Both the position numbers and the translations under genes were made by a program. From a virus, in the IMG/VR virus record IMGVR_UViG_3300033146_001183, positions 1 through 25,886 of that record: 25,886 nucleotides of DNA. The stretch is one strand, 5' to 3'. The notes below the pieces were generated by a model. It had not been told where the DNA came from, searched no databases, and saw only the letters and a list, made by a program, of their open reading frames with translations. Below are positions 4,328-23,299 of the stretch, piece by piece (the first letter of the stretch is position 1; every line of letters begins with the position of its first letter).

Positions 4328-4787
4328 TAAGGCTAAGGGTAATAATGCAGAGAGAGCAGTAGTTAAGATATTGAACGAGTATTTCAACACAGATAGATTC
4401 AAAAAAGTTCCACAATCTGGAGCTTTTGGGACAATACACTCAAAGTCATTATCTAAAACCGAAGCACAAGTATTCATTGGTGATATTATAACACCAGAGG
4501 AATTTCCATTCATATTAGAAGTTAAACATTATAAAGATGTAGATATGTGGAAAATATTCGAAACTGGTGAAACACAGTGGGATGAGCAATTAGAAGAAGA
4601 GGAACTTAACTTAGAAAAATCAGGTAAGAAAGGAGTTGTCTTAGTATTCAAAAAGAACAACAGGAAATTCATAGCAATGTTTAAGAAAGATCTATTGGAT
4701 ATTAAAACATATCCGAAAATGGAATTCGAAGACAAGATTGCAGTACCATTTACAGACTTTCTTACATGTATAAAGGAGATGGAATAA
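4308..4787 (+). CDS. PD-(D/E)XK nuclease, Hjc-type Holliday junction resolvase-like
   Basis: Predicted 159-residue nuclease. The N-terminus KAKGNNAERAVVKIL carries the Lys-Gly...Glu signature of Hjc/PDDEXK enzymes; VPQSGAFG follows (Ser-Gly motif), then GDII with the metal-binding Asp and FILEVKHYKDV with Glu-x-Lys. Family members cut branched DNA such as Holliday junctions, which would fit the neighbouring RNase H and UvsY-like genes. ATG 4308 is preferred over TTG 4296 because GGGG at 4298-4301 is correctly spaced from it. A restriction-like or other PDDEXK role cannot be excluded. Confidence 0.75.
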   Translation: MKKRINSKAKGNNAERAVVKILNEYFNTDRFKKVPQSGAFGTIHSKSLSKTEAQVFIGDIITPEEFPFILEVKHYKDVDMWKIFETGETQWDEQLEEEELNLEKSGKKGVVLVFKKNNRKFIAMFKKDLLDIKTYPKMEFEDKIAVPFTDFLTCIKEME

Positions 4788-4936: not shown

Positions 4937-4997
4937 TAATAAATGGATAATTATTGCATTCGTATTAACATTTATGTTAGGCGCAATTATATTCTAA
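4917..4997 (+). CDS. Tiny single-span membrane protein, 26 residues
   Basis: A frame from ATG 4917 to TAA 4995-4997 overlaps the end of the 49-residue gene in another frame. It encodes MVKWASDNKW followed by an uninterrupted hydrophobic stretch of about 16 residues ending in GAIIF, a classic short membrane segment with a positive N-terminus. The Shine-Dalgarno is weak (TTGAAG), so translation may depend on coupling. The function is unknown; a lysis or host-membrane role is possible. Confidence 0.45.
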   Translation: MVKWASDNKWIIIAFVLTFMLGAIIF

Positions 4998-5008
4998 TGG
5001 GGGCAACA

Positions 5009-5611
5009 ATGAATTCATACATTAAACATTTTAGAAATGAAATCGAAATATTAAAAAAAGTAGGGGATTTTGATGATTGGGTGGTGAGAGACTTCATTAA
5101 AAACATAGAAGATATTACAGAGGTGTTCGCTAACCAGGGTCACTCAGGAAGTTCAGCACCATTTTATTCATCTGCATTAGCTGAGACAATAAAGAGGGTT
5201 TTAGGTTTCGATATAATAACACCCCTAACGGGTAAAGATGGAGAATGGGGTGAACAAATATCAAATGACGGTACACTACAGAATAAGAGACTATCGTCAG
5301 TATTTAAAGGTGATAAAGGTTCGTACTACTTAGATGCTATAGTCTGGAAGGATGGTGATTTCACATATACAGGTAAAGTTGAAGAAATTAGAAGTAGACA
5401 ATACATAAAATACCCGTTCATGCCAAAAACATTCTATATAGATGTAGTCAGAATATATGGAACAAAAGAAGAATTTATAAAGAACAATCTAGATTACTAT
5501 GAGGACTTTAAGAAAGGTGAGGATGGTGAAATAATAGAACAATACTACAGGACAGAAATAAAAGATAGAAGACAATTAGATGAAGTTGCAAAATATTACA
5601 ATAATGATTAA
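5009..5611 (+). CDS. Conserved phage protein of unknown function (GHSG...PLTG type)
   Basis: A 200-residue protein. ATG 5009 has GGGGG at 4999-5003; the longer frame from 4943 would lack a ribosome site. The sequence NQGHSGSSAPFY, LTGKDGEWGE, QNKRLSSVFK, YYLDAIVWKDG, SRQYIKYPFMPKTFYIDV resembles a family I recall as common in large phages and annotated only as conserved hypothetical. The invariant His-Ser-Gly, Asp-Glu-Trp and Lys/Arg residues look like an active site, but no reaction is known to me. It follows the small genes of the nuclease unit closely. Confidence 0.8.
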   Translation: MNSYIKHFRNEIEILKKVGDFDDWVVRDFIKNIEDITEVFANQGHSGSSAPFYSSALAETIKRVLGFDIITPLTGKDGEWGEQISNDGTLQNKRLSSVFKGDKGSYYLDAIVWKDGDFTYTGKVEEIRSRQYIKYPFMPKTFYIDVVRIYGTKEEFIKNNLDYYEDFKKGEDGEIIEQYYRTEIKDRRQLDEVAKYYNND

Positions 5612-6301: not shown

Positions 6302-9300
6302 ATGAAGAATACACAGAAACTATCTAAGTATTTCAATGAAGATGTATCGAAAATATGGAGGACAAAGTATCACCCAGAAAAAACACCTGGTGAATTATGG
6401 AAAGAAATGGCTAAACTTGCTAGTGAGGTTGAAGAGCCAAATAAACAAAAAGAATGGGAAGATAATTTTAATGACATTTTACAAGATTTTAAATTCATAC
6501 CTGGTGGGCGTATACTTTATGGGCTTAATGAGTCTATAAAAGACCCACAAAAAAAAATAGGCCTATCTAACTGCTTTGTTGTCCCTGCCCCCAATGATAG
6601 TATTGAGTCCATATTTGACACTGCTAAAATTTTAGCACGTATATATTCAAGAGGTGGGGGTTGTGGGGTTTCGCTGGACAAAATCAGACCGAAGGGTGCA
6701 ATAGTTAACAATTCTGCTGAAAGATCAGATGGAGTAGTTCCTTTCATGAAGATATTCAGTTCTGTTACTGAGAATATAAGTATCAATGGGCGAAGGGGTG
6801 CTTTATTACTAACATTATCTGTTGATCACCCTGATATTATAGAGTTTATAAACTCTAAATGTGATTTGAAAGATATAACAGCAGCCAATATTTCTGTTCG
6901 TCTAACTGATGATTTCATGAAGGCTGTGATTAATGATGAAATGTGGAATTTAACATTTCATGTCAAATCTACAGGTGAGAAAATCGATAGATCATTACCA
7001 GCTAATGAGATTTTTGATTTATTTATAAAGAACTCGAATGCAACTGGTGAACCTGGTGGTGTATACTGGGATAAGGTTGAAAAATTTTCCCCAAATTACC
7101 ACTTCCCGAATCATAGGGTTGCTGGCCAAAACCCATGTTCAGAAGAAACTTTACCTGAATTTGGTGCATGTTTATTAGGTAGTGTTGTCTTGTCTAAATT
7201 TGTTAAATATGGGTTAACCAAGAGGGCAGAAGTTGATTGGGATTCATTGCGATTACATTTACAACATGGATTGAGATTTTTAGATAATGTAATAGATCTA
7301 CAAATAAAATATAAGTTATATCCACATAACGAACAATTGAAAATTGCACAAAGTGGTAGGCAAAGTGGGTTAGGTATAACAGGTTTACACGATTACCTAA
7401 TTCTACAGGGTAAACGTATAGATTCTGAAGATGGTTTAGCTGCGGTCGATAAATTATCAGAATTTATAACCGATGTTGTGTATTCATATGGTATGGATAT
7501 AGCTAAAGAGAAAGGTGCGTTCCCAGATTGGGATTATGATTTGTGGATGAAGTCTGATTTTGTTAAATCTCTCCCAAGTCATTTACACGAAAAGGCAAAG
7601 GAGTGCGGTGTCAGGAATATTAGCATGATGAGTTTTGCACCAACGGGTTCATTATCAATCATTGCAGGTTCATCGAGCGGAATTGAACCTATATTTCAGA
7701 AAAGTTATGATCGCATTGTTAAATTGGGTGGAGCTGAAAAGATAATAAAAGTACTACATCCTTTATATGAGCGATATTTAGAAAAGAATTATGATATAGA
7801 TGAATCTGTTTTTGTAACTTCTCATGAAATAAGTTGGGAAAAAAGAATAAGATTGCAGGCTATATTACAACGTAGACTTGATACTGCAATTAGTAGTTGT
7901 TTAACATTAGAGAATCATATGATTAACACTGATAAAGGCCTGAAATATATTGAAGATGTTGTTAATCCTGGAGATAATAATACATTTACAGGCATTAATG
8001 GTGAATATATCACATTAAATCATAATAATGAGAAGTCTAAAATAACAGATGGATATATTAATGGAATTGCTGATACTTATAAGGTTGAATTTTCAAAAGG
8101 TAATAATATAATAGGAACAAAAAACCATAAATTACAGATATTAACTAATAATTATGATACAAAATGGGTTGAAATTGGAGATATTCAAAATGGAGATTAT
8201 GTAGTTGGGAGGATGAATCTTGGGTGTTTTGGAAATTCTCAAACTTGTATATCTAAAATAAATGGAAAATTTGAATCTAAAATTAAAGATGTTATGCATG
8301 GTAATACAAAGAAGATAAAATTACCAGGTAGAGTTACAACAAAATTTGCCAGATTATTAGGATATTTGATATCTGATGGGTGTGTTAATGATAATGGTAT
8401 TACATTATCTCAGCTTAATAATAATGTAGTTTCTGATTTTACAAATTTAGTTAAAGAATTATTTGATATTGATGTGTATGTATATCGAGATAAAAGAGTA
8501 AGTGATAATGAATTATTATCCGTATCAGCAAATAGTAGAATATTGCGTGATTTTATTGAATATATTGGCATAACTCGGAGTGCATTTACTAAGACAATAC
8601 CTAAAGTTATATTTGAAGGTGCAGGAAGAACTCAAACAGCAGAATTTATAAAAGGATTAACATTAGATGGATTTGTATCTAAAGATAAATTAGGGGTAAT
8701 GACAACAATTAGTAAAAAATTAGCTAATGAATTAATATTATTATTAAATCAATTTGGAATTATTGCTAATATTATGTGTAATCCTGAAGGTGAACGTAAA
8801 TTCCCACAGGGGGGAATATATGAAACTAAAGAATCATTTTCTGTATATGTGACAGGTTATAGTGCATATAAATTTATAAAAAATATAGGATTTGCTGAAG
8901 ATAGAAAAAATAAAGAAGCAAAAGAGAAATTCAAAACACAACAGTATTTTAGAAATGAATTATTTGGAAATATACCAGATTATGGAATAATGGAAAATAT
9001 AAGAGATAAATGTTTACCACATATAAATAGTAATAAATTATATAGTGAACTACATTCATATACGAATCGTTCTAATTATACAAGAAGTGTCGAGCGTTCT
9101 CAGATTCAGTATTTTAAAGATTTAAATATTTTAATTGATATTCCTGATTATATTATGGACCCAACATATAGATTTATGGAAGTTAAAGATGTTACATATA
9201 ATGGTAAAAAAGAAACTTTAGATGTCTCTGTAGATAATGGACATTCTTATATTGTTAATAATTTAATTTCACACAATACAATTAACTTACCATCAGATAC

Positions 9301-9880
9301 AACAGATGAAACAGTTAGAAATATATACATAGAGGCTTGGAAACAAGGATTGAAGGGGATCACTGTATACAGGGACGGGTCTCGTTCTGGAATATTAATA
9401 AGAAAGAAGAAACGTCCGGCAGTATTGGAATCAAAGACTTACCAGATAAAAAGTGAGGAAGTTACGTATTACGTAACTATTAGTGATAATATGGATCAGG
9501 GTGAACTTAAGAAGAAACCTTTTGAGATATTTATAAACAGTCAGAAACCTAATGATCTTATAGGTGTTGTAACGAGATTAATGTCAGCTATTATGAGAAG
9601 AACAGATGACGTATCATTCATTGTGAGACAACTTAGAAAGAGTGCAAATGGTCATGGTGGGGATTTTCTTAAAAAGTTAGCTAATGTTATAGAAGAGCAT
9701 ATTGGGAAGAAGAAGGTTATTGATATACAACATATTGCAGTAAGTCCTATTTCTATTTCTAAACCTAGAGTTTCTGGGTTTCAAGAGTGTCCAAGTTGTA
9801 AACAGATGACATTGGTTATGGAGAATGGTTGTAATAGTTGTAAGAATCCATCTTGTGGGTATGGTGCTTGTGGTATATAG
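6302..9880 (+). CDS. nrdJ: Class II (adenosylcobalamin-dependent) ribonucleotide reductase with an intein
   Basis: The 1192-codon frame encodes a reductase of 732 residues interrupted by a 460-residue intein (residues 533-992). The extein matches NrdJ: SNCF (Cys91, redox pair), a Gly-rich SRGGGCGVS, NPCSE (Asn277, Cys279 thiyl site, Glu281), GACLLGSV (Cys290, redox partner), APTGSLSIIAG and, after the intein, TINLPSDTT...GLKGITVYRDGSR. The C-terminus is a Cys-rich zinc-binding tail (CPSC...CNSC...CGYGACGI) typical of NrdJ. It makes dNTP precursors without needing oxygen or a NrdB partner, but needs host cobalamin. No nrdB-like gene is in the window. ATG 6302 follows AAGGAG. Confidence 0.93.
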   Translation: MKNTQKLSKYFNEDVSKIWRTKYHPEKTPGELWKEMAKLASEVEEPNKQKEWEDNFNDILQDFKFIPGGRILYGLNESIKDPQKKIGLSNCFVVPAPNDSIESIFDTAKILARIYSRGGGCGVSLDKIRPKGAIVNNSAERSDGVVPFMKIFSSVTENISINGRRGALLLTLSVDHPDIIEFINSKCDLKDITAANISVRLTDDFMKAVINDEMWNLTFHVKSTGEKIDRSLPANEIFDLFIKNSNATGEPGGVYWDKVEKFSPNYHFPNHRVAGQNPCSEETLPEFGACLLGSVVLSKFVKYGLTKRAEVDWDSLRLHLQHGLRFLDNVIDLQIKYKLYPHNEQLKIAQSGRQSGLGITGLHDYLILQGKRIDSEDGLAAVDKLSEFITDVVYSYGMDIAKEKGAFPDWDYDLWMKSDFVKSLPSHLHEKAKECGVRNISMMSFAPTGSLSIIAGSSSGIEPIFQKSYDRIVKLGGAEKIIKVLHPLYERYLEKNYDIDESVFVTSHEISWEKRIRLQAILQRRLDTAISSCLTLENHMINTDKGLKYIEDVVNPGDNNTFTGINGEYITLNHNNEKSKITDGYINGIADTYKVEFSKGNNIIGTKNHKLQILTNNYDTKWVEIGDIQNGDYVVGRMNLGCFGNSQTCISKINGKFESKIKDVMHGNTKKIKLPGRVTTKFARLLGYLISDGCVNDNGITLSQLNNNVVSDFTNLVKELFDIDVYVYRDKRVSDNELLSVSANSRILRDFIEYIGITRSAFTKTIPKVIFEGAGRTQTAEFIKGLTLDGFVSKDKLGVMTTISKKLANELILLLNQFGIIANIMCNPEGERKFPQGGIYETKESFSVYVTGYSAYKFIKNIGFAEDRKNKEAKEKFKTQQYFRNELFGNIPDYGIMENIRDKCLPHINSNKLYSELHSYTNRSNYTRSVERSQIQYFKDLNILIDIPDYIMDPTYRFMEVKDVTYNGKKETLDVSVDNGHSYIVNNLISHNTINLPSDTTDETVRNIYIEAWKQGLKGITVYRDGSRSGILIRKKKRPAVLESKTYQIKSEEVTYYVTISDNMDQGELKKKPFEIFINSQKPNDLIGVVTRLMSAIMRRTDDVSFIVRQLRKSANGHGGDFLKKLANVIEEHIGKKKVIDIQHIAVSPISISKPRVSGFQECPSCKQMTLVMENGCNSCKNPSCGYGACGI
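7898..9277 (+). mobile_element. Intein with LAGLIDADG homing endonuclease inside nrdJ
   Basis: In-frame 460-codon insertion between Ser532 and Thr993 of the reductase frame. Splicing motifs: Cys1 in block A (CLTLENHMI), Thr and His of block B in GTKNHKLQI, blocks F/G ending GHSYIVNNLISHN with penultimate His and terminal Asn, and Thr as +1 extein residue. The endonuclease carries two LAGLIDADG-type motifs, LLGYLISDGCV and FIKGLTLDGFV, each keeping its acidic residue, so both splicing and homing look intact. The insertion cuts the extein precisely at AISS/TINLPSDT, a conserved segment of class II enzymes and the kind of site inteins favour. By eye the DNA is poorer in C than the flanking extein, suggesting separate origin. 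Confidence 0.92.
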
Positions 9881-17459: not shown

Positions 17460-17520
17460 GGGGATTGATGTAACCTGGTAGCATAAGTCACTTTGATTGG
17501 TTCAAATCTACTATCCCCTG
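17460..17520 (+). tRNA. tRNA-like gene lacking the 3' half of its anticodon arm (Gln-TTG-like)
   Basis: GGGGAT (17460-17465) pairs with ATCCCC (17513-17518). The D arm is ATG/CAT around a normal loop with TGG, and the T arm has loop TTCAAAT (17501-17507) with one mismatch in the stem. Only 11 nt (AAGTCACTTTG) lie between the D and T arms, where about 22 are needed. What remains looks like a 5' anticodon strand AGTCA and a loop beginning CTTTGA, which would give anticodon TTG. A normal cloverleaf cannot form. The 61-nt gene is followed by GTTTTT. Confidence 0.6.
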
Positions 17521-17542
17521 TTTTTAAAAAATAGGAGGAATG

Positions 17543-17695
17543 ATGACTGAATTAGGTTCACTAGACGATAGATTAAATGAAGCACTAACACTAGATGATA
17601 TACCAGAATGTAATGACGATAATACATATGATATAGATAAATATAGAATATCATTTTTCCACACATATAAGGACGATGACGATGACTTCGTCTGA
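17543..17695 (+). CDS. Small acidic hypothetical protein, 50 residues
   Basis: AGGAGG at 17533-17538 precedes two adjacent ATGs (17540 and 17543); the second has better spacing. The frame runs to TGA 17693-17695. The peptide is very acidic and ends in DDDDDFV. No motif recognised. Its stop codon overlaps the first base of the 17-bp repeat array. Confidence 0.6.
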   Translation: MTELGSLDDRLNEALTLDDIPECNDDNTYDIDKYRISFFHTYKDDDDDFV

Positions 17696-17782
17696 ACCCG
17701 TTGGAATGTCGAACCCGTTGGGATTAAGAACCCGTTGGAATGTCGAACCCGTTGGAATGTCGAACCCGTTGGGATTAAGAAC
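17694..17782 (+). repeat. 17-bp tandem repeat array, two unit types
   Basis: Five head-to-tail 17-bp units plus a GAAC stub: units 1, 3 and 4 are GAACCCGTTGGAATGTC, units 2 and 5 are GAACCCGTTGGGATTAA (order A-B-A-A-B). The array fills the gap between two genes and ends at the AAGGAG of the next gene. The first nine bases equal the core of the VEPVKK-coding repeat. Confidence 0.95.
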
Positions 17783-17796
17783 TAAGGAGAAATGAA

Positions 17797-18093
17797 ATGG
17801 AAGCTAATTTCAGATACATAATAGAAACAGAAAAGATAAAGTATTTTAAGAATGAGGGTGTGTCTGACAATGTGGTAGATAAAACCCTTAAATTATTTGA
17901 GAGTTTGTATAAGATAAATAATAAATTTAAAGTATACCCATGCTTAGATGATAAGGACGACAAATATTCTATAATTCAAATAGAATTAGATACTGATGGT
18001 TTATACATAGAGTATACCATTTTTGAAGATGAGACCCACATGTTATTAATGGACGATGATGACGTTATCGTAGAACAGAAAATCGCAGATTGA
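17797..18093 (+). CDS. Hypothetical 98-residue acidic protein
   Basis: Starts at ATG 17797 behind AAGGAG. The N-terminal half is helical (TEKIKYFKNEGV, KTLKLFESLYKI), the C-terminal half beta-like and acidic (LYIEYTIFEDE, LLMDDDDVIVEQ). No family recognised. It is the last protein gene before the tRNA cluster, and its ribosome site lies just past the repeat array. Confidence 0.72.
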   Translation: MEANFRYIIETEKIKYFKNEGVSDNVVDKTLKLFESLYKINNKFKVYPCLDDKDDKYSIIQIELDTDGLYIEYTIFEDETHMLLMDDDDVIVEQKIAD

Positions 18094-18123
18094 AAAAAAA
18101 TAACACAACATTTATACCAAAAC

Positions 18124-18222
18124 AATAAATAACTATAGAAGGAAGATAATTTGAGACATTTAATGTGGAATCCGAGTTGCTTGATCATAGCCATGGATAC
18201 CTGTATGTTAAATTATAAACCT
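18124..18222 (+). promoter_or_regulatory. AATAAATAACTATAGA leader element, then unassigned sequence
   Basis: AATAAATAACTATAGA followed by AGGAAGA is nearly identical to the element at 22255, before the second homing endonuclease, and resembles a T4 late promoter with its downstream bases. The rest up to 18222 contains no convincing gene; a TTG-initiated 44-codon frame exists but runs into the structured RNA. Confidence 0.45.
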
Positions 18223-18335
18223 TCAACAGCGACATCTGGAACACCAAGATCATTTGAAGATCATGGTGTCCTTACACTCCGATAAGCCAAAAAAGGTTTT
18301 TGAAGGGTAGTAAGGCTTAGTCGGATAGCTGTTGA
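18223..18335 (+). ncRNA. Structured RNA: three-way junction closed by an 8-bp stem
   Basis: TCAACAGC (18223-18230) pairs perfectly with GCTGTTGA (18328-18335). Inside are two arms. Arm one: GGAACACC (18238-18245) with GGTGTCC (18265-18271), one bulged A. Arm two: TCCGA and AAGCC (18278-18288) with GGCTT and TCGGA (18314-18325), capped by CAAAAA/TTTTTG. The nesting of four independent stems in 113 nt of AT-rich DNA is hard to explain by chance. It is not a tRNA: no T-loop is present. No known RNA family recognised. Confidence 0.65.
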
Positions 18336-18382
18336 TATCAACGATTTCAAATAAAATTCAATTAAGTCTTACAAAATGTTTG

Positions 18383-18410
18383 CATTTTAACACTGTTTTG
18401 TGTTAAAATG
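18383..18410 (+). promoter_or_regulatory. Perfect 11-bp inverted repeat matching the phage promoter motif
   Basis: CATTTTAACAC (18383-18393) and GTGTTAAAATG (18400-18410) flank TGTTTT. TAAAAT at 18404-18409 occupies the -10 position, with AACAC 15 nt upstream, as in the other promoters. It would drive the first tRNA block. The repeat could also be an operator or a transcribed hairpin. Confidence 0.55.
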
Positions 18411-18419
18411 TATTCGATA

Positions 18420-18497
18420 GAGGACAGGTTGTTCTCTTAAGTTTCTTTGAATTGTTTGTATTGTATAAAAATCGGTACGTCAAACCTGACAGTACCG
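18420..18497 (+). other. Two further strong hairpins
   Basis: AGAGGAC...GTTCTCT (around 18420-18438) is a 7-bp hairpin with one G-T pair. At 18473-18497 CGGTAC, GTCA, loop AACC, TGAC, bulged A and GTACCG form a 10-bp hairpin. No gene is seen between them. Confidence 0.55.
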
Positions 18498-18507
18498 TAA
18501 AAAATTA

Positions 18508-18573
18508 TCCCCAATAGAAGTAAATAATTCGCGCGAGTTAAACTTATTACCTAATAGGTAAGATTGGGGACCA
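18508..18573 (+). ncRNA. tRNA-sized element with 7-bp end stem and encoded CCA, no T-loop
   Basis: CCCCAAT (18509-18515) pairs with ATTGGGG (18563-18569), followed by A and CCA exactly like a tRNA 3' end. Inside are two hairpins, AATTC/GAGTT with a GCGC loop and CTT..ACCT/AGGT..AAG. The usual T-loop (TTCxAxx) and D-loop GG are absent and the interior is only 47 nt. It may be a tRNA mimic or a decayed tRNA. Identity unknown. Confidence 0.5.
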
Positions 18574-18644
18574 TTATGTTCAAGGGTGTCTGATGATTAC
18601 GCAGTCTTTATTCATTGAGGTAAAACCTCAACTTGAGCAAACAT
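18574..18644 (+). other. Self-complementary spacer before the next tRNA-like gene
   Basis: ATGTT and TCAAG near 18576-18585 pair with CTTGA and AACAT near 18631-18643, enclosing TTGAGG/CCTCAA with a TAAAA loop. No gene or T-loop is visible. It may be processed together with the flanking tRNA-like genes. Confidence 0.4.
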
Positions 18645-18704
18645 GGGCCAGTAGCCAAACTGGGAAGGCACTACTTTTGGTCGGTTCAAATCCGACCTGG
18701 TCCA
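18645..18704 (+). tRNA. tRNA-like gene without a complete anticodon arm
   Basis: The acceptor stem GGGCCAG (18645-18651) with CTGGTCC (18697-18703) is complete with one G-T pair. The D arm GCC/GGC has a normal AAACTGGGAA loop. The T arm GTCGG-TTCAAAT-CCGAC is perfect. But only 10 nt (ACTACTTTTG) join the D and T arms, so no anticodon stem-loop can form; the remnant resembles the 5' strand and first loop bases of a Gln or Pro tRNA. Discriminator A, no CCA encoded. Total 60 nt. Confidence 0.65.
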
Positions 18705-18733
18705 ATTAATAAATACTAAATAGTTAAAAGAAA

Positions 18734-18809
18734 TGCGGGTGGCAGGCTGGAAGTTTGACGTAGGCTCATATCCTATGGTAGGTTGGTTCAATTCCAACAC
18801 CCGCGTCCA
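18734..18809 (+). tRNA. tRNA-Met (CAT), initiator-like
   Basis: Acceptor TGCGGGT pairs with ACCCGCG, the first pair being a T-G wobble. The anticodon arm GTAGG-CTCATAT-CCTAT gives CAT; the T arm is GTTGG-TTCAATT-CCAAC; CCA is encoded (18807-18809). The D region (GGCTGGAAGTTTGAC) and GGCTCATA around the anticodon follow bacterial initiator tRNA, and the weak 1-72 pair imitates the initiator mismatch. An elongator role remains possible. Confidence 0.82.
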
Positions 18810-18826
18810 TTTAATATTGTAAGTAT

Positions 18827-18903
18827 GGGGTTGTAGCATAATTGGCTAGTGCAACACGTTGTCTGCGTGTAAAGTAAGGGTTCGATCCCCTTCGACCTCG
18901 CCA
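18827..18903 (+). tRNA. tRNA-Asp (GTC)
   Basis: Acceptor GGGGTTG/CGACCTC with two G-T pairs, D arm GCA/TGC, anticodon arm ACACG-TTGTCTG-CGTGT (anticodon GTC), T arm AAGGG-TTCGATC-CCCTT, discriminator G, CCA encoded. A regular, complete tRNA. Confidence 0.95.
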
Positions 18904-19283
18904 GCAATATTAAATAGTCGAAACGGGTTCGAACTCCATGGCGTTCGATCGTTAGACTTTAAATAACCCTGCCTATTCCTATGACATATACATGATACCT
19001 ATGGGTTGGTATATAACAGGATCCGCTGATGTGGAAACAGCGAAAACAAATCCACCCGGAAAAATAGTAGTTCCGTTAACCTAATCTACTCGGGTTTATG
19101 TTTGTTGTTCCCGTTATTAAAACGACATTCCTGGTTAGGGTTCTTGTTGGTTATCTCAGTTATCAAAAGAATCCCAGCATTATTAATTTACTATTTTCAG
19201 AAACGGGTTTTTGGTGGTAATATGAGATTATGCATGGTCAAAATGTTCTCCGCCATCTTCTCAGTGTCTGTTATGGACAGGAA
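18904..19283 (+). other. 380-bp stretch without a recognisable gene but with several stems
   Basis: Contents seen: an AACGGGTTC motif copy at 18922; CGAAC/GTTCG hairpin near 18930; ATACC/GGTAT at 18995-19012; interleaved pairs CGCTG:CAGCG (19024-19042) and GTGG:CCAC (19031-19055), a possible pseudoknot; and CCCG..AGTAG / CTACT..CGGG (19055-19094). A 61-codon hydrophobic frame at 19102-19287 has no ribosome site and is doubtful. No tRNA with a proper T arm could be built here. Confidence 0.45.
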
Positions 19284-19355
19284 TTAGATCTATTGGGTAA
19301 TTGGTAATCCTGCTCTTAAAGTGAGAGAATCTCAGTTCGAATCTGGGGGTTTAGT
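19284..19355 (+). tRNA. Degenerate tRNA-like gene, identity unclear
   Basis: A T arm CTCAG-TTCGAAT-CTGGG (19331-19347) and acceptor TTAGATC/GGTTTAG can be drawn, but three of seven acceptor pairs are wobbles. The D region has TTGG. The anticodon arm TGCTC-TTAAAGT-GAGAG has one mismatch and would give AAA, an unusual anticodon; other registers lose U33. No CCA. Either a decayed tRNA or a structural mimic. Confidence 0.45.
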
Positions 19356-19365
19356 TTGGTATGAT

Positions 19366-19420
19366 AATAGTACGGAGTTCGCAGGATGTCTCCGATATCA
19401 AAGCATCTTCCAGCACTATT
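19366..19420 (+). ncRNA. Small structured element with possible pseudoknot
   Basis: AATAGT (19366-19371) pairs with ACTATT (19415-19420). Inside, CGGAG (19373-19377) pairs with CTCCG (19390-19394), while GATG (19385-19388) in its loop can pair with CATC (19404-19407), giving an H-type pseudoknot order. No protein gene overlaps. Confidence 0.45.
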
Positions 19421-19424
19421 AAAT

Positions 19425-19590
19425 GGTAATTAGTCTTTGTTCTGGTGATAACCAGGCGCAGACAGTCTAATTTTCTATAAGGTGGAAAAATAATTAGATT
19501 CAGAATCTAATTTCCTTGAATGAGCCCCATAGATGGGCAAAGTACTGGGATATTTCCGGAGATTCCCTTTACGATTAGACAATAATTACC
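19425..19590 (+). ncRNA. Large structured RNA with nested 7-9 bp stems
   Basis: GGTAATTA (19425-19432) pairs with TAATTACC (19583-19590). Inside: GTCT..CTGGT-GATA-ACCAG..AGAC (19433-19463); GTCTAAT (19465-19471) with ATTAGAC (19574-19580); within that TTTC/GAAA, a 9-bp hairpin AATTAGATT-CAG-AATCTAATT (19492-19512), GCCC/GGGC and GGGA/TCCC. The 9-bp hairpin could be read as an anticodon arm with CAG in its loop, but no T arm exists. I see no group I intron P7 core. Family unknown. Confidence 0.6.
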
Positions 19591-19600
19591 TTATATTTTT

Positions 19601-19675
19601 TGGAATGTATATCAATGGTAGATGACATGTTTTGGGAACATGAGGCTGAGAGTTCGAGTCTCTCCATTCCAACCA
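19601..19675 (+). tRNA. tRNA-Pro (TGG)
   Basis: Acceptor TGGAATG/CATTCCA, D arm ATC/GAT around AATGGTA, anticodon arm CATGT-TTTGGGA-ACATG (anticodon TGG), T arm GAGAG-TTCGAGT-CTCTC, discriminator A, CCA encoded. Followed by GAATTTTTTTTC, possibly a transcription stop. Confidence 0.95.
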
Positions 19676-19749
19676 GAATTTTTTTTCAATGACATTTTAA
19701 TCTCCTTTTTTAGAAAAGTCTTCTAAACTTTTAGAAAAGGGGTATATAA

Positions 19750-19864
19750 ACTGTGGGCAAACTACCCAACAAGGAAGTTTGTGTGGATTTAAACTATTCT
19801 AACCAATTAGTTACATTACATTGTCATTAACAATGAAATTCATGTCAAGAGATTGACCCACAGT
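19750..19864 (+). ncRNA. Structured RNA: 8-bp closing stem around four hairpins
   Basis: ACTGTGGG (19750-19757) pairs perfectly with CCCACAGT (19857-19864). Inside, in order: CAAACT/AGTTTG (19758-19781), CTAA-CCAA-TTAG (19799-19810), CATTGT-CATTA-ACAATG (19819-19835) and TCAA-GAGA-TTGA (19845-19856, GNRA-type loop), the last abutting the closing stem. This is a compact five-way junction, not a tRNA. Just upstream, TTTTAGAAAAG occurs twice around 19711-19739. Confidence 0.65.
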
Positions 19865-19876
19865 TCTGTTTTGATT

Positions 19877-19960
19877 GCTAATGTGTTAGAATATGTAGAC
19901 ATCAGGGTTTTAGACACCCTGGACCGGAAGGTTGTAGAGGTTCGAAGCCTCTCATTCGCA
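19877..19960 (+). tRNA. tRNA-Leu (TAG)
   Basis: Class II tRNA. Acceptor GCTAATG/CATTCGC has one T-C mismatch; anticodon arm AGGGT-TTTAGAC-ACCCT gives TAG; the long variable arm contains ACC-GGAA-GGT; T arm AGAGG-TTCGAAG-CCTCT. The D loop is atypical (no GG) and CCA is not encoded. Probably functional but somewhat degenerate. Confidence 0.8.
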
Positions 19961-19967
19961 TTTTGAT

Positions 19968-20074
19968 AGCTCGGTTAGAATTGATATTCTCGCAATATGC
20001 TTTGTCATTTTGTGGTCTTTAATATTTTCATGAGGATATTATTAGACTTGGTGGTTTGATTCCACCCCGGGTTT
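19968..20074 (+). tRNA. tRNA-like gene with an enlarged, non-canonical middle
   Basis: Acceptor AGCTCGG/CCGGGTT (two wobbles), D arm AGAA/TTCT and perfect T arm GGTGG-TTTGATT-CCACC are clear. Between D and T arms lie about 57 nt instead of 22-38. Their 3' part is a near-perfect hairpin (GTCT..TAATAT...ATATTA..AGAC). No standard 5-bp/7-nt anticodon arm can be found. It could hold an intron, an oversized variable arm, or be a tRNA mimic. Confidence 0.5.
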
Positions 20075-20094
20075 TTTAAAAGGAGTGTGTAAAA

Positions 20095-20313
20095 ATGACA
20101 ATATATAGATGTGGTTATTGTGGTACAGTGTGTAAGGAAGATGGTTCACAAGAAGATATTAATTATCTAAACAGTTTAGAATTTAAACTTAAATTCAAAT
20201 TGTTCGGTGATAAGGCTGAATCTGTCTACGGTACTTGTTGTTTAAATCCACAGCAAGAATATGAGGAATATATGATGAGACAAGATGAATTTCATAGAGG
20301 ATCAGAATATTGA
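20095..20313 (+). CDS. Small zinc-ribbon protein inside the tRNA cluster
   Basis: A 72-residue protein from ATG 20095 behind AAAGGAG. It begins MTIYRCGYCGTVCKEDG, with a CxxC pair plus a third Cys, and has CC at residues 50-51, enough for one zinc site; the C-terminus is acidic. It is read in the same direction as the tRNAs, from within their transcript. No family assigned. Confidence 0.72.
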   Translation: MTIYRCGYCGTVCKEDGSQEDINYLNSLEFKLKFKLFGDKAESVYGTCCLNPQQEYEEYMMRQDEFHRGSEY

Positions 20314-20614
20314 GGTGTATAATTACTCCCCCAGCAGTAAATATCGAGATTTATAATAAATGACATTTTGTATAGTAAGGTATATCACCAAATCATAATT
20401 TGTCATGGTTGTAATTACTGCTTCGGTGGTAATATATACGTTATAAAATATATTATTGATTGAGTAAAACGCTTAAAAACATCATAAATAGTGAGAAAAC
20501 ACTTATAAAGATCAAAATACTGTTAGAATTACCTTTTTGGCAGTAAAAACGAAATCAAATTTCGTATTAATAAACGAATTTACGAAATGGTTTTTCGTGT
20601 GTTACGTTTTAAAT
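20314..20614 (+). other. 300-bp non-coding stretch with hairpins
   Basis: Seen: an 8-bp hairpin ATTACTGC-TTCG-GTGGTAAT near 20424-20443, with a stable TTCG-type tetraloop; an imperfect direct repeat AAAACGCTTAAAAACATC / AAAACACTTATAAAGATC about 31 nt apart (20466-20513); and two related hairpins ACGAAAT-CAA-ATTTCGT (around 20549-20565) and ACGAAA-TGGTT-TTTCGT (around 20583-20599). No protein gene or T-loop is visible. Confidence 0.5.
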
Positions 20615-20690
20615 GGGGTAGGTTGATAATTAGTAGTCAACTTGACTGTGACTCAAGTTTGTGCCGGGGCAGAGCCGGTCCTACTCCCCA
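20615..20690 (+). tRNA. tRNA-His (GTG)-like gene with abnormal T-loop
   Basis: The anticodon arm CTTGA-CTGTGAC-TCAAG is perfect and gives GTG. A T-position stem GCCGG/CCGGT closes the loop GGCAGAG, which lacks the universal TTC. The acceptor GGGG..TAGG / CCTA..CCCC needs a 2-nt bulge, and the D arm is long (GTTGA/TCAAC). The right size and order, but likely a diverged or decayed tRNA. Confidence 0.5.
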
Positions 20691-20694
20691 ATAT

Positions 20695-20765
20695 TCCTCG
20701 TTAGTTTAATGGTAAAACAAAAGATTTGTAATCTTTAAATATTAGTTCGATTCTAATACGGGGAT
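20695..20765 (+). tRNA. tRNA-Thr (TGT)
   Basis: Acceptor TCCTCGT/ACGGGGA, D arm GTTT/AAAC, anticodon arm AAAGA-TTTGTAA-TCTTT (TGT), T arm ATTAG-TTCGATT-CTAAT. CCA is not encoded. The stop codon of the minus-strand endonuclease gene begins at the very next base. Confidence 0.93.
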
Positions 20766-21650
20766 TTAATCCATAATTAACAATTTGAACTTGTATCCAT
20801 GTTTGATATATTCTTTTTCTTTATCTTTCATGTTTTGTTCATCAAGAGTCCATTCACTTTTAATTTCAACTATGGTATTATTCTTTGGGAGATAAAAATC
20901 AGGAATTGCAATTCTTTGTTTATTTTTCTGAGAATCCCAATATAATATTCTTAGAGATTCCATAACATATTCTATTTTCAGATCGTCTAATTCTTTAGCG
21001 TATCTTAGTTCATAACTGCTTCTATAGAATACCTGTCTACCATCCCAAGTTGTGTGGTAACCATTTTTATAACGTGGGTTGGTGGGAGTTGACCTAACAC
21101 CATTTTTTACAGATATCATTTGAGAGTTACTTAATGTTCTTAATTTTATTCCAAGTGATTTTAATATTTTAGTGAAATTTCCAGTATTATAATGACCATA
21201 TTTCTTAGCCATTTGTACTGAACTTAATTCATTATCATAATAATCTTCTTTTAATTTATTTGTAATAATTTCATATTCATTATAAACTTTTTCAGAGCCT
21301 ATTGTTGATAAATCAAATCCGAAATATTTATTAAGCCCACTAAACGATTTATATTTAAGACAAATGTCTCGACGTTTACATTCTTTAGAGTTTATATTTC
21401 CACAAATGTTACATTTATTAATTGATGTTCCATTAGACCATCTTTTAGTACATTTTGAACATTTGACTTGTTTAGAAGACGTTCTTTTATTAACTATCAT
21501 TTTGATTCCACATACTGAGCATTCTCCATGTTTAGTATCTAATTTATTATCAGACTTAGTTGAAAAACTTCTAGAGCATTTTTGAGAGCAAAATCTACCA
21601 GAACCATAAGTTCCATCATGTTCTTTATTACATAGTTCACATTTTAACAT
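20766..21650 (-). CDS. Homing endonuclease-like protein: zinc fingers plus PD-(D/E)XK domain
   Basis: A 294-residue protein read against the tRNAs. The N-terminal third holds several Cys pairs (CELC..FCSQKC; CSVC..CSKC; CNIC..), typical DNA-reading fingers of phage mobile nucleases. The C-terminal third has YRSSYELRYAKELD (Glu), AIPDFYLPKNN (Asp) and TIVEIKSEW (Glu-x-Lys), a PD-(D/E)XK-type site. Between them is a helix-turn-helix-like linker (SSVQMAKKYGHYNTGNFTKI). It lies precisely between tRNA-Thr and the next tRNA, as free-standing homing genes do. AGGAGG precedes its ATG and an AATAAATA element lies upstream on the same strand. Confidence 0.78.
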   Translation of the reverse strand: MLKCELCNKEHDGTYGSGRFCSQKCSRSFSTKSDNKLDTKHGECSVCGIKMIVNKRTSSKQVKCSKCTKRWSNGTSINKCNICGNINSKECKRRDICLKYKSFSGLNKYFGFDLSTIGSEKVYNEYEIITNKLKEDYYDNELSSVQMAKKYGHYNTGNFTKILKSLGIKLRTLSNSQMISVKNGVRSTPTNPRYKNGYHTTWDGRQVFYRSSYELRYAKELDDLKIEYVMESLRILYWDSQKNKQRIAIPDFYLPKNNTIVEIKSEWTLDEQNMKDKEKEYIKHGYKFKLLIMD

Positions 21651-21668
21651 TCGAACCTCCTATACATA

Positions 21669-21676
21669 TATTTATT
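21669..21676 (-). promoter_or_regulatory. Candidate late-type promoter of the minus-strand endonuclease gene
   Basis: AATAAATA on the minus strand, about 19 nt upstream of the start codon, followed by AGGAGG. The 8-mer alone is common in this composition, so support comes only from position. Confidence 0.35.
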
Positions 21677-21723
21677 ATTCTCGGTAGTTGGTACGAATAT
21701 TTTCAATAAAAATAAGTAATCAG

Positions 21724-21791
21724 ATAGGACGGTCGGTTATCGTCGATATATCATAAGTATTCTGAAACTGGTTCAACTCCAGTTACCTGTA
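21724..21791 (+). tRNA. tRNA with CAT anticodon (Met or Ile2), imperfect acceptor
   Basis: Anticodon arm GATAT-ATCATAA-GTATT gives CAT; T arm ACTGG-TTCAACT-CCAGT is perfect; a D arm (GACG/CGTC or ACG/CGT) can be drawn. Only five acceptor pairs, ATAGG/CCTGT, are clear. Because another CAT tRNA with initiator features exists at 18734, this may be elongator Met or a lysidine-modified Ile tRNA. Confidence 0.6.
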
Positions 21792-21794
21792 CAT

Positions 21795-21890
21795 GGTGAG
21801 TTGTGGGAGTAGGTTTATCCAGGCTGGTTGCTAACCAGTTGGCGGTATGAATAATGTCGTCCAAAAGTTCGAATCTTTTACTCACCTCCA
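21795..21890 (+). tRNA. tRNA-Ser (GCT)
   Basis: Class II tRNA with perfect acceptor GGTGAGT/ACTCACC, anticodon arm GCTGG-TTGCTAA-CCAGT (GCT), a long variable arm (GGCG...CGTC), T arm AAAAG-TTCGAAT-CTTTT and encoded CCA. Confidence 0.93.
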
Positions 21891-21895
21891 ATTAT

Positions 21896-21969
21896 TGGGA
21901 TATAGTTCAATGATAGAACAAATGACTGTTAATCATTAGATCGTGGTTTGAGTCCACGTGTCCCAGCCA
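21896..21969 (+). tRNA. tRNA-Asn (GTT)
   Basis: Acceptor TGGGATA/TGTCCCA, D arm GTTC/GAAC, anticodon arm AATGA-CTGTTAA-TCATT (GTT), T arm CGTGG-TTTGAGT-CCACG with T in place of the usual C56, discriminator G, CCA encoded. Confidence 0.93.
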
Positions 21970-21990
21970 GAGCGTTTAAATTAATTAAAA

Positions 21991-22011
21991 TAGACTAGGA
22001 TATGTTATACT
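21991..22011 (+). promoter_or_regulatory. Promoter-like phage motif within the tRNA cluster
   Basis: TATACT at 22006-22011 preceded by TATGT, with TAGACT starting 15 nt upstream, the spacing seen in the other promoters. It could start a second tRNA transcript carrying tRNA-Ser(TGA). Confidence 0.5.
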
Positions 22012-22157
22012 CAAAAATATAGGATCCAAATACTTTAGGCATCAACGTTGTACAACGTAAAGATAAATGATGTACCGTGCTATATCAATATGAGTTAATC
22101 GTAAGATGTTGTGATGAAGACCCGCGTGGTTGTAAAACTAAACATATTCGATTTTAT
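22012..22157 (+). other. Unassigned leader with a 14-bp palindrome
   Basis: A perfect palindrome ACGTTGTACAACGT lies at 22045-22058. The rest of the 146 bp contains no tRNA with a T arm and no supported reading frame. It separates the promoter-like motif from tRNA-Ser(TGA). Confidence 0.5.
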
Positions 22158-22239
22158 AGCGGATAGCCTCTATGGAGAGAAACAGGTGTTGAATACCTGG
22201 CCATGTGGAAGCATGAGAGTTCGATTCTTTTATCCGCTG
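22158..22239 (+). tRNA. tRNA-Ser (TGA)
   Basis: Class II tRNA. Acceptor AGCGGAT/ATCCGCT, anticodon arm CAGGT-GTTGAAT-ACCTG (TGA), variable arm CATG-TGGAAG-CATG, T arm GAGAG-TTCGATT-CTTTT, discriminator G as expected for serine. The D arm is short (CTC/GAG). CCA not encoded. Confidence 0.88.
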
Positions 22240-22254
22240 ATTTCTTCTCTTAAT

Positions 22255-22342
22255 AATAAATAACTATAGAGGAAGAAATGGGAGATATCCCTGCCAACTG
22301 ACCTCGGAAGATGTTGGCTATTCCTCAAATTTTACCGAGGAG
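22255..22342 (+). promoter_or_regulatory. Leader of the second endonuclease gene: late-type promoter, 7-codon uORF and RBS-covering pseudoknot
   Basis: AATAAATAACTATAGA (22255-22270) is followed by GAGGAAG and a short frame ATG 22278 to TGA 22301 coding MGDIPAN. GCCAAC (22293-22298) pairs with GTTGGC (22313-22318), and CCTCGG (22302-22307), inside that loop, pairs with CCGAGG (22335-22340): an H-type pseudoknot with two perfect 6-bp stems. The second stem covers the GAGGAG that serves ATG 22350. The uORF ends within the first stem's loop, so a translating ribosome would open it. Confidence 0.65.
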
Positions 22343-22349
22343 AATTTAA

Positions 22350-23090
22350 ATGTCAGAAGAATTAAAAAAATACAAATGTAAATATTGTGATGAAGAGTTT
22401 GGAATACATCAACATCTAGCTAATCATGTCCAATATGAACACGATTTGGAAGATTATAAATGTAAGTATTGTGGAGAAGAATTCAAACTATCTTCTTTTT
22501 TAGCTAATCATATACAATATATACATATGGAAATAAAAAAAATGAAATGTGAAATTTGTGGAATGGTTGTAAAGAATTCTGGATATAAATCACATTTAAA
22601 GTCTCATGATAATGATATAGAATGTGATAATTGTGGTGTAATATTCAATAAAACTAAATCACAACAAAAAAAATCAAAGTCGGGTAAACATTTTTGTTCA
22701 AGTTCATGTTCTGCCACTTATAATAATAAACATAAAAAAACTGGAACTCGTAGGTCTAAATTAGAAGAGTGGTTAGAGTTTCAATTAATTAAATTATATC
22801 CAGATTTAGAAATCATATTCAATTCAAAGGAACAGATAAATTTAGAATTAGATATTTATATACCATCTATGAAAATAGCAATAGAAATCAATGGTATATT
22901 TAATTATAAACCAATTTATGGGATAGAAAAGTTAAATAAGATTAAACAGTACGACAAAGAACGTGATGTACTATGTGAAAACTATAACATAAATTTACAC
23001 ACAATAGACACATCGGACCAAAAACAATTCACACCTGAATCATCAGAACGATATTTAAAAGAAATACAAAATATAATAATGCCTCGTTAG
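22350..23090 (+). CDS. Homing endonuclease-like protein with C2H2 zinc fingers and an EDxHD/Vsr-like domain
   Basis: A 246-residue protein. Residues 7-85 hold three C2H2-type fingers (CKYCDEEF...H...H twice, then CEICGMV...H..H); residues 91-125 another Cys-rich finger (CDNC...FCSSSC). The C-terminus has KLEEWLEFQLIKLYPDLEI, INLELDIYIPSMKIAIEING and LCENYNINLHTID, the order of EDxHD homing nucleases related to Vsr. In the family copies I recall, a His follows the IEING strand; here Asn (GIFNYKP) replaces it, so catalysis may be impaired. The stop codon lies inside tRNA-Arg(TCT). Translation is probably controlled by the upstream pseudoknot. Confidence 0.78.
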   Translation: MSEELKKYKCKYCDEEFGIHQHLANHVQYEHDLEDYKCKYCGEEFKLSSFLANHIQYIHMEIKKMKCEICGMVVKNSGYKSHLKSHDNDIECDNCGVIFNKTKSQQKKSKSGKHFCSSSCSATYNNKHKKTGTRRSKLEEWLEFQLIKLYPDLEIIFNSKEQINLELDIYIPSMKIAIEINGIFNYKPIYGIEKLNKIKQYDKERDVLCENYNINLHTIDTSDQKQFTPESSERYLKEIQNIIMPR

Positions 23091-23155
23091 TTCAATGAAT
23101 AGAACATAAAACTTCTAATTTTATTATAACAGTTTGATTCTGTTACGAGGTTCCA
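23081..23155 (+). tRNA. tRNA-Arg (TCT)
   Basis: Acceptor GCCTCGT/ACGAGGT, D arm GTTC/GAAC, anticodon arm TAAAA-CTTCTAA-TTTTA (TCT), T arm AACAG-TTTGATT-CTGTT, CCA encoded. Its first ten bases are shared with the end of the endonuclease gene. Confidence 0.93.
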
Positions 23156-23165
23156 TCCCTGCCAT

Positions 23166-23241
23166 ACATCCTTAGTTCAATTGAATAGAATATGGGGCTT
23201 CGAACCCCAAGATGAGAGTTTGATCCTTTCAGGGTGTACCA
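23166..23241 (+). tRNA. tRNA-Arg (TCG)
   Basis: Acceptor ACATCCT/AGGGTGT, D arm GTTC/GAAT, anticodon arm TGGGG-CTTCGAA-CCCCA (TCG), T arm GAGAG-TTTGATC-CTTTC, discriminator A, CCA encoded. Confidence 0.92.
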
Positions 23242-23244
23242 AAT

Positions 23245-23299
23245 GCTTCGATAGCAAAACGGAATGAAGGGATTCTTGGTTCGAATCCAAGTCGAGGCA
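23245..23299 (+). tRNA. Truncated tRNA-like gene, 55 nt, no anticodon arm
   Basis: A perfect acceptor GCTTCGA/TCGAGGC and T arm CTTGG-TTCGAAT-CCAAG are present, with TA at positions 8-9 and a D-loop-like AAACGGAA. Only 21 nt separate TA from the T arm, where about 40 are needed, so the rest of the D stem and the anticodon arm are missing. No CCA. Amino acid cannot be assigned. Confidence 0.6.

Follow-up and report, generated by a model that had tools for sequence, protein, structure and literature searches.

The viral DNA window analysed here (25,886 nt, IMG/VR record IMGVR_UViG_3300033146_001183, taken as one whole stretch) carries tRNA-like genes that keep acceptor and T arms but leave no room for an anticodon arm. 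The question is whether these are tRNA genes in decay or RNAs kept for a purpose other than decoding. A sequence-only reading had listed three such genes and proposed three independent losses. The best member is at 18645-18704 on the + strand. Its acceptor (GGGCCAG/CTGGTCC) is paired at 7/7 positions and its T arm (GTCGG-TTCAAAT-CCGAC) at 5/5, a 3 bp D arm (GCC/GGC) is followed by a 10-nt linker, and the gene carries A73 and G3:U70; the 15-48 pair is A-G, i.e., non-Levitt. The distance from acceptor to T stem is 28 nt, compared with 39-42 nt in the class I tRNAs of the window. The Rfam tRNA model (RF00005, cut-off 29 bits) gives it 36.8 bits, and it is the window's top match (39.1 bits, E 1e-13) to an armless covariance model trained on 49 elements from elsewhere, independent of the window loci. 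Ordinary genes for tRNA-Met (18734-18809) and tRNA-Asp (18827-18903) lie 3′ of it on the same strand.

The gene at 23245-23299, also on the + strand, is part of a tRNA array, with tRNA-Arg ending 3 nt before it and tRNA-Trp beginning 5 nt after it. Acceptor (7/7) and T arm (5/5) are fully paired with 23 nt between them, the D stem is poor, and the scores are 32 bits with the Rfam tRNA model and 29.3 bits with the armless model; by eye the gene looks Cys-like. Both loci are confirmed as genuine anticodon-armless tRNA-like genes, and both are overlooked by ARAGORN. With no anticodon stem, and with acceptor and T stem only 23-28 nt apart, neither has what a tRNA needs for decoding; judging from the parts retained, what disappeared seems to be the variable region together with the 3′ strand of the anticodon arm. 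The strict requirement of acceptor, T arm and short core gave 2 matches in 22.7 Mb of shuffled sequence, thus the presence of 18645 and 23245 in one tRNA cluster and on the same strand is not due to chance. The third proposed gene, at 17460-17520 (+ strand), is at noise level and not supported as a class member. It has a 6 bp acceptor and a T stem of ~4/5, but no Rfam match at E<=1, an armless-model score of 6.1 bits (E 3.5) and a fold that does not outdo shuffled sequence (z -0.14). An alternative reading is a tRNA that lacks the T arm and whose anticodon loop, CUUUGAU, is weak. The losses in the window are therefore two rather than three.

Viral sequences elsewhere were scanned with a single D-arm/T-arm pattern built on the commoner AGCTCA..GGTAGAGC D arm, since a pattern based on the Gln-type D arm of 18645 gave 0 matches. 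At least 119 viral contigs have tRNA-like genes with a linker, usually of 6-8 nt, in place of the anticodon arm. Among the matches listed, 93 of 120 readable ones have an acceptor of >=6/7 and a T stem of >=4/5. The acceptor-to-T distance peaks at 26 nt, separate from the normal 39-42 nt. A control scan with a gap of 19-22 gave 109 stretches over the collection as a whole; these are a mixed set in which some have mini-hairpin anticodon arms. The count for a gap of 5-18 is a lower bound, so its ratio to the control is not exact. A Bacteroidota chromosomal set was excluded from the class, as its acceptors do not match. Isolate genomes and the annotated phages Danklef, bIL309 and ul36 share the armless architecture; in Danklef the gene is annotated as tRNA-OTHER.

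Across the class 98.5% of acceptor and T stem cells are paired, and the covariation score is 0.76 versus 0.16 when shuffled. Of 70 elements, 62 retain the 15-48 Levitt pair (G-C in 47, A-U in 15), and acceptor sequences are very diverse. Elements L093 and L172 are identical while their flanks are 76-78% identical; L134 and L188 are identical at 60/61 positions, with 71% identity in the upstream flank. It had been suggested that relatives be searched for compensatory acceptor changes. Megablast, tblastn and peptide-pattern scans with the clamp, GP88 and RNR proteins found no close relatives of the window phage, but elsewhere in the class C1-G72 has become G1-C72 (L171 versus L093). The number of contigs, the peaked core length, near-complete pairing, conservation above that of the flanks and compensatory change strongly support the earlier proposal, for the class, of function rather than decay. 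The loci 18645 and 23245 are shown to belong to a widespread phage class in which the anticodon arm is gone while the acceptor, the D and T arms and the contacts of the elbow persist. Because tRNA finders miss its genes or call them undetermined, a recurrent, selected class of phage RNA seems to have escaped cataloguing; the open-access literature searched contains no description of it.

The genomic placement of the elements bears on what this function may be. In L142 the armless element lies 3 nt after GOLLD, and in L154 it borders ROOL on the 3′ side, the 5′ side being bordered by a normal tRNA-Gln. All of the Streptococcaceae GOLLD copies (9/9) have a tRNA or tRNA-like sequence within ~10 nt of the 3′ end, the slot being held by a full tRNA, an armless form or a rearranged tRNA with the acceptor kept. 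The L274 ROOL is flanked by a D-armless minihelix of acceptor and T arm ~14 nt 5′ and by tRNA-Lys 4 nt 3′. In T7-like phages the element lies between capsid and tail genes or between scaffold and capsid genes, and head/packaging genes, in a few groups, are the only recurrent protein neighbours across class loci; no defence gene is among them. A strong hairpin ends 0-8 nt upstream of 27/70 elements, compared with 72/420 random sites (p 1.5e-4) and 13/87 normal tRNAs (p 9e-4), and only 5 of these 27 hairpins have a terminator-like U run. U is present at -1 in 33/70 elements, versus ~28% at positions -2 to -12.

Of the two supported window loci, 18645 but not 23245 has a candidate large RNA directly 5′. 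The stretch 18140-18640 (+ strand) ends 4 nt before the element, has no + strand ORF of >=60 aa inside, and folds with z -5.9 over its 501 nt, compared with -0.9 to +1.1 in six coding controls; z reaches -7.0 when the armless element is included. It has no Rfam match at E<=1 within the window, and differs from GOLLD (RF02032) and ROOL (RF03087) in matching neither family. A hairpin, TTGAGGTAAAACCTCAA (18616-18632, + strand, -6.6 kcal/mol), ends ~12 nt before 18645. At the other end of the stretch is a AATAAATAACTATAGAAGG box of repeat family D3 (18119-18142, + strand; further copies at 22250 and 23726), which, read by eye, is possibly a phage late promoter. We infer that 18140-18640 is a candidate structured noncoding RNA whose 3′ end would be set by the element at 18645.

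Large truncations of the substrate are tolerated by bacterial RNase P, and U at -1 is preferred by RNase P. Hairpins consisting of acceptor and T arm alone are cleaved by the bacterial enzyme (PMC11143913). The idea of a minihelix-like mimic, put forward in the sequence-only reading, stands in that the acceptor and elbow requirements of tRNA-recognising enzymes are all kept, but the targets it named, EF-Tu and the CCA enzyme, have no specific support; the GOLLD/ROOL 3′ and capsid placement, U at -1 and the upstream hairpins point to RNase P instead. On balance, we lean slightly towards the view that, within longer phage transcripts, the armless elements are sites recognised by RNase P. Cleavage at the 5′ end of the element would create the 3′ end of the upstream RNA, which could be a giant structured RNA (GOLLD, ROOL or the candidate at 18140-18640) or an mRNA, be it from a capsid gene or another. 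Where a strong hairpin lies just upstream, as it often does, it would shield the new 3′ end, and the other side of the element would be trimmed by host tRNA 3′ processing. The anticodon arm would not be needed for this role and thus would be free to be lost; full tRNAs would serve equally, so the loss is merely permitted and not explained. Several observations weigh against the role. Of ~60 loci searched with Rfam models only 3 have GOLLD or ROOL as a neighbour, a strong upstream hairpin is missing from ~60% of copies, 23245, being in a tRNA array, has no evident RNA to terminate, the Lactococcus P335-type units resemble free small RNAs, and stem pairing and U at -1 could come from the parent tRNAs. 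The A-G combination at 15-48 in 18645 also counts against it.

MALAT1-type RNAs have a protective structure just upstream of the cut. In mammals, RNase P cleavage at mascRNA-type elements generates the 3′ end of the large RNA, as at MALAT1, where the nuclear enzyme acts at mascRNA (PMC4919922). In MALAT1-mascRNA and MEN-beta-menRNA, as here, a small tRNA-like RNA immediately follows a large structured noncoding RNA, and the MALAT1 end is the closest mechanistic analogue of the phage elements. However these eukaryotic systems comprise few loci and use a triple helix, whereas the phage class has many apparently independent origins, a hairpin and a putative cleavage. A broader proposal is plausible but falls just short of being favoured: phages of many hosts may have repeatedly made tRNAs into a stripped RNase P module, often hairpin plus armless tRNA, creating 3′ ends for giant RNAs (GOLLD, ROOL and novel RNAs like 18140-18640) and for capsid mRNAs, a phage counterpart of MALAT1-mascRNA giving terminator-free ends. 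If the element sets RNA ends, it would explain why tRNAs neighbour GOLLD and ROOL, give the true ends of these nanocage RNAs, serve as a simple key in searching for further giant phage RNAs like 18140-18640, and reveal a way in which phage mRNAs around capsid genes obtain stable ends without a terminator.

Other known systems share parts of the arrangement. GOLLD and ROOL have, as here, a tRNA or tRNA-like sequence at giant RNA ends; passages of two reports (PMC12286853, PMC6582537) describe tRNA islands nearby and a pseudo-tRNA within mycobacterial GOLLD, and contain no description of the armless form, the exact-end placement or a processing role. The tRNA-like domain of tmRNA likewise has no anticodon arm. 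A tmRNA identity was rejected for the phage elements, which have no tag reading frame and a canonical AGCTCA..GGTAGAGC D arm, and of the models only that of tRNA matches the elements tested; in L121 and L122 the armless element is merely near a separate permuted tmRNA. Plant mitochondrial t-elements and mitochondrial tRNA punctuation resemble the proposed role, being tRNA-like RNase P cut marks in polycistronic RNA; t-elements are organellar, are cut by PRORP and do not have the defined anticodon-arm loss of the phage class. Armless mitochondrial tRNAs of nematodes and mites also miss an arm, but it is the D or T arm and the anticodon is kept for decoding, the reverse of the phage class.

An unlikely alternative to the RNase P site is that the armless tRNA, once processed, is the end product, a free small RNA that acts as decoy or regulator by binding proteins that handle tRNA (RNase P, CCA enzyme, EF-Tu, a synthetase indifferent to the anticodon such as AlaRS, or a tRNA-targeting defence nuclease). 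Lactococcus phages seem to hold it as a self-contained unit, P335-type copies following their own promoter and the D2544 copy preceding a terminator (both by eye). Copies are mostly solitary, and the retained elbow contacts go beyond strict RNase P needs. AlaRS is an aminoacyl-tRNA synthetase that ignores the anticodon, and G3:U70, the alanine identity pair, is found in window element 18645 and in 9/70 armless elements, 7 of the 9 with the usual GGG..TCC acceptor and A73. However normal tRNAs have G3:U70 at a frequency that is not clearly lower (10/151), the acceptors are diverse, there is no recurrent neighbour or defence gene, and the placement at GOLLD/ROOL 3′ ends and the upstream hairpins are left unexplained. 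The more specific suggestion of decoys against anticodon nucleases found no specific support.

It is improbable that the elements are superfluous phage tRNA genes losing their middle by deletion. Degenerate tRNAs do occur in arrays, and the poor D stem and array location of 23245 and the degraded look of 17460 would fit. However 63 of 93 elements have no normal tRNA within 5 kb, so most are not decaying members of an array, and together with the peaked core length, the stem pairing, the conservation above flanks and the compensatory change described above this leads to rejection of decay for the class as a whole, though not for 23245 and 17460.

Still less credible are amino-acid donors, i.e., aminoacylated non-decoding tRNAs serving a phage modification enzyme. 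The acceptor end is intact, a subset has alanine identity, and a GP88-family gene (PF17338) is directly 5′ of a tRNA-like sequence in the window and in L097, but it adjoins only these two loci, one being the weak 17460; no enzyme is common among the neighbours, and anticodon-independent identity is absent from most acceptors. Assembly or sequencing error, or tRNA halves joined or spliced to wholes as the sequence-only reading had allowed, could be argued from short length alone but is hardly conceivable: the architecture recurs in many independent assemblies, isolates and the three annotated phages, and halves are excluded in practice because one gene contains both acceptor strands and no complementary partner is seen.

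Among other phages compared, Streptomyces phages Picard and ToastyFinz are without the element, and at the corresponding site of Rhodococcus phage REQ3 there is a different fold of very high stability.

The window, a complete IMG/VR virus record of 25,886 bases, carries 14 tRNAs between positions 18734 and 23700, all on the + strand (ARAGORN). Scanning the window for T arms combined with acceptor stems recovers most tRNAs of this cluster, and also finds two additional places where the core is too short. At 18645-18704 and 23245-23299 (both + strand), the acceptor-to-T-stem distance is 28 and 23 nt, respectively, vs. 39-42 nt in the class I tRNAs of the window. Both loci exceed the Rfam tRNA cut-off of 29 bits, with 36.8 and 32 bits; neither was called as a tRNA in the window by ARAGORN. 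In 22.7 Mb of shuffled sequence, the strict criterion gave 2 matches. Thus two of the loci that the sequence-only reading proposed as tRNA-like, with a shortened middle, are supported. Its third, 17460-17520, is not: it is without Rfam support, has a fold z of -0.14, and scores 6.1 bits (E 3.5) with the class covariance model. A T-armless tRNA-Gln-like sequence is an equally good reading of this stretch, which is treated here as unproven.

No close relative of the window phage was found in the searched collections, and therefore the architecture itself was used as the search query. IMG/VR was scanned for a common tRNA D arm followed by a T arm, at a spacing too small for an anticodon arm. At least 119 contigs display this architecture, and 93 of the 120 readable matches, among those listed, have an acceptor of at least 6/7 and a T stem of at least 4/5. 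The acceptor-to-T distance is two-peaked, with one mode at 26 nt and the other at the normal 39-42. Members retain position 26 and a short run of bases; a variable-loop-like N-G-U-C often comes next, before the T stem. The linker between D and T stems is usually 6-8 nt (70 non-redundant members). These armless elements, i.e., with acceptor, D and T arms and a short linker in place of the anticodon arm, constitute a class. No prior description of it was found in the open-access literature; the element of Polaribacter phage Danklef is annotated as tRNA-OTHER.

The armless class is under selection, rather than in decay. Stem cells are paired at 98.5% in 49 aligned members, with a covariation score of 0.76 vs. 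0.16 for shuffles. Part of this signal comes from ancestry in different full tRNAs, and therefore orthologs were compared as well. The 58-nt element is identical between contigs L093 and L172, with flanks 76-78% identical, and L134 and L188 show one difference in 61 positions, with an upstream flank at 71%. Between L093 and L171, both partners of the first acceptor pair have changed, from C1-G72 to G1-C72. Stem pairing, conservation of orthologs above their flanks and this double acceptor change bear out, for the class, the earlier suggestion of function rather than decay. The tertiary Levitt pair 15-48 is mostly present (G-C in 47/70, A-U in 15/70), thus the elbow fold is retained in the class; unlike the majority, 18645-18704 has A15-G48. 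A normal tRNA within 5 kb is absent for 63 of 93 members. With a covariance model built from class sequences, none taken from the window, 18645-18704 is the best window match (39.1 bits, E 1e-13) and 23245-23299 the third (29.3 bits). The latter is located in the tRNA array, where no structured RNA like that of 18140-18640 lies upstream of it, and it could conceivably have arisen by a recent deletion.

Directly upstream of 18645-18704 is a candidate structured RNA, 18140-18640 (+ strand), with a fold z of -5.9; six coding controls gave z between -0.9 and +1.1. No ORF on its + strand reaches 60 aa, and it matches no Rfam family. A repeated AATAAATAACTATAG box at its 5′ end, judged by eye, may be a late promoter. 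The order, structured RNA and then armless tRNA, is as at the giant phage RNAs GOLLD and ROOL, so that in the simplest reading the armless tRNA at 18645-18704 would form the 3′ end of the 18140-18640 RNA.

In a Streptococcus prophage (L142), the element starts 3 nt downstream of the GOLLD 3′ end, and a full tRNA is in the corresponding slot of Streptococcus phage Javan565. In each of the Streptococcaceae GOLLD copies (9/9), a tRNA or a tRNA-like sequence lies no more than about 10 nt from the 3′ end. These slots hold complete tRNAs (Phe, Trp and Arg), the armless form and, in one case, a rearranged form that still has its acceptor; four copies share a Leu-like remnant (remnants judged by eye). 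In L129, the order is GOLLD, class II tRNA, armless element. In L154, ROOL has a normal tRNA-Gln on one side and an armless element on the other; in L274 it lies between a fragment limited to acceptor and T arm and, on the opposite side, a tRNA-Lys. A clear flanking tRNA is missing at 3/5 Lactobacillaceae ROOL loci.

In 27/70 members, a strong hairpin (-10 kcal/mol or lower) has its end 0-8 nt before the element, vs. 72/420 random sites and 13/87 normal tRNAs of the same contigs; a terminator-like U run follows in only 5 of the 27. The 300 nt upstream have a fold z below -3 in 19/65 members vs. 5/59 stretches 2 kb away. U is at -1 in 33/70 members, vs. about 28% at -2 to -12, and also at 18645-18704 and 23245-23299 (read from sequence); G is at +1 in 39/70. 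Both nt fit bacterial RNase P sites and may be inherited. Bacterial RNase P tolerates strong truncation of its substrate. Hairpins of acceptor, T stem and T loop are cleavable by the bacterial enzyme (PMC11143913), and nuclear RNase P produces the MALAT1 3′ end at the tRNA-like mascRNA (PMC4919922). We infer, at roughly an even chance, that armless elements serve as RNase P punctuation; that they are free small RNAs is the main rival. As punctuation they would work similarly to mascRNA and the t-elements of plant mitochondria, with the class assigned to neither.

Other settings include the head genes. In T7-like phages the element is between the major capsid gene and a tail gene (L102 group) or between the scaffold and capsid genes (L133/L155), and in the L093/L171/L172 group it is downstream of the capsid region, with a 15-17 bp hairpin before it in L093 and L171. 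At the site matching the armless tRNA of relatives, downstream of the capsid region, Rhodococcus phage REQ3 (L392) has a different structure, an extremely stable multibranched RNA fold at 4400-4611 (-100 kcal/mol in 211 nt). In Lactococcus P335-type phages the element is 3′ of the lysin gene, apparently as a stand-alone unit. tRNA arrays, as with 23245-23299, are another setting.

Other tRNA-like forms occur elsewhere. A Bacteroidota chromosomal element (L225-L228, L230, L233, L238, L239, L252, L260, L261, L264) combines D and T arms with a linker of 13-14 nt and lacks an acceptor 5′ strand that matches; a tRNA-Arg(acg) is about 375 nt downstream of it in several of the genomes. A conserved D-arm/T-arm tRNA-like sequence in L096, L107, L117, L123, L127, L141 and L183 has a mismatched acceptor 5′ strand, and most copies end with ATGCCCATCC. 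Phage tRNAs in L294, L339 and L357 have the anticodon arm reduced to a tiny hairpin, with acceptor and T arm intact.

The window has further tRNA-like sequences. That at 19968-20073 has a 7/7 acceptor (AGCTCGG/CCGGGTT) and a perfect T arm with 75 nt between, which is too long, possibly by insertion. A His-like shape (GTG loop) at 20616-20689, with a non-canonical T loop, CAGAGCC, was not called by ARAGORN; the surrounding 20314-20694 has a fold z of -3.9. T arms with weak acceptors are at 19284-19355 and 21719-21792. At 17694-17782 are 17-bp tandem repeats, GAACCCGTTGGAATGTC, whose core, AACGGGTTC, recurs on the opposite strand at about 18923 and 24522. The window also encodes a GP88-family protein with long extensions (PF17338, 15645-17435); in L097, a GP88 gene is 24 nt upstream of the armless tRNA. 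A class II-like ribonucleotide reductase (6302-9880) is apparently split by an intein (CLTLEN...HN/T, judged by eye), and 4943-5608 is an anti-defence gene for a Tad3-family type I Thoeris inhibitor (PF25185, E 1e-25).
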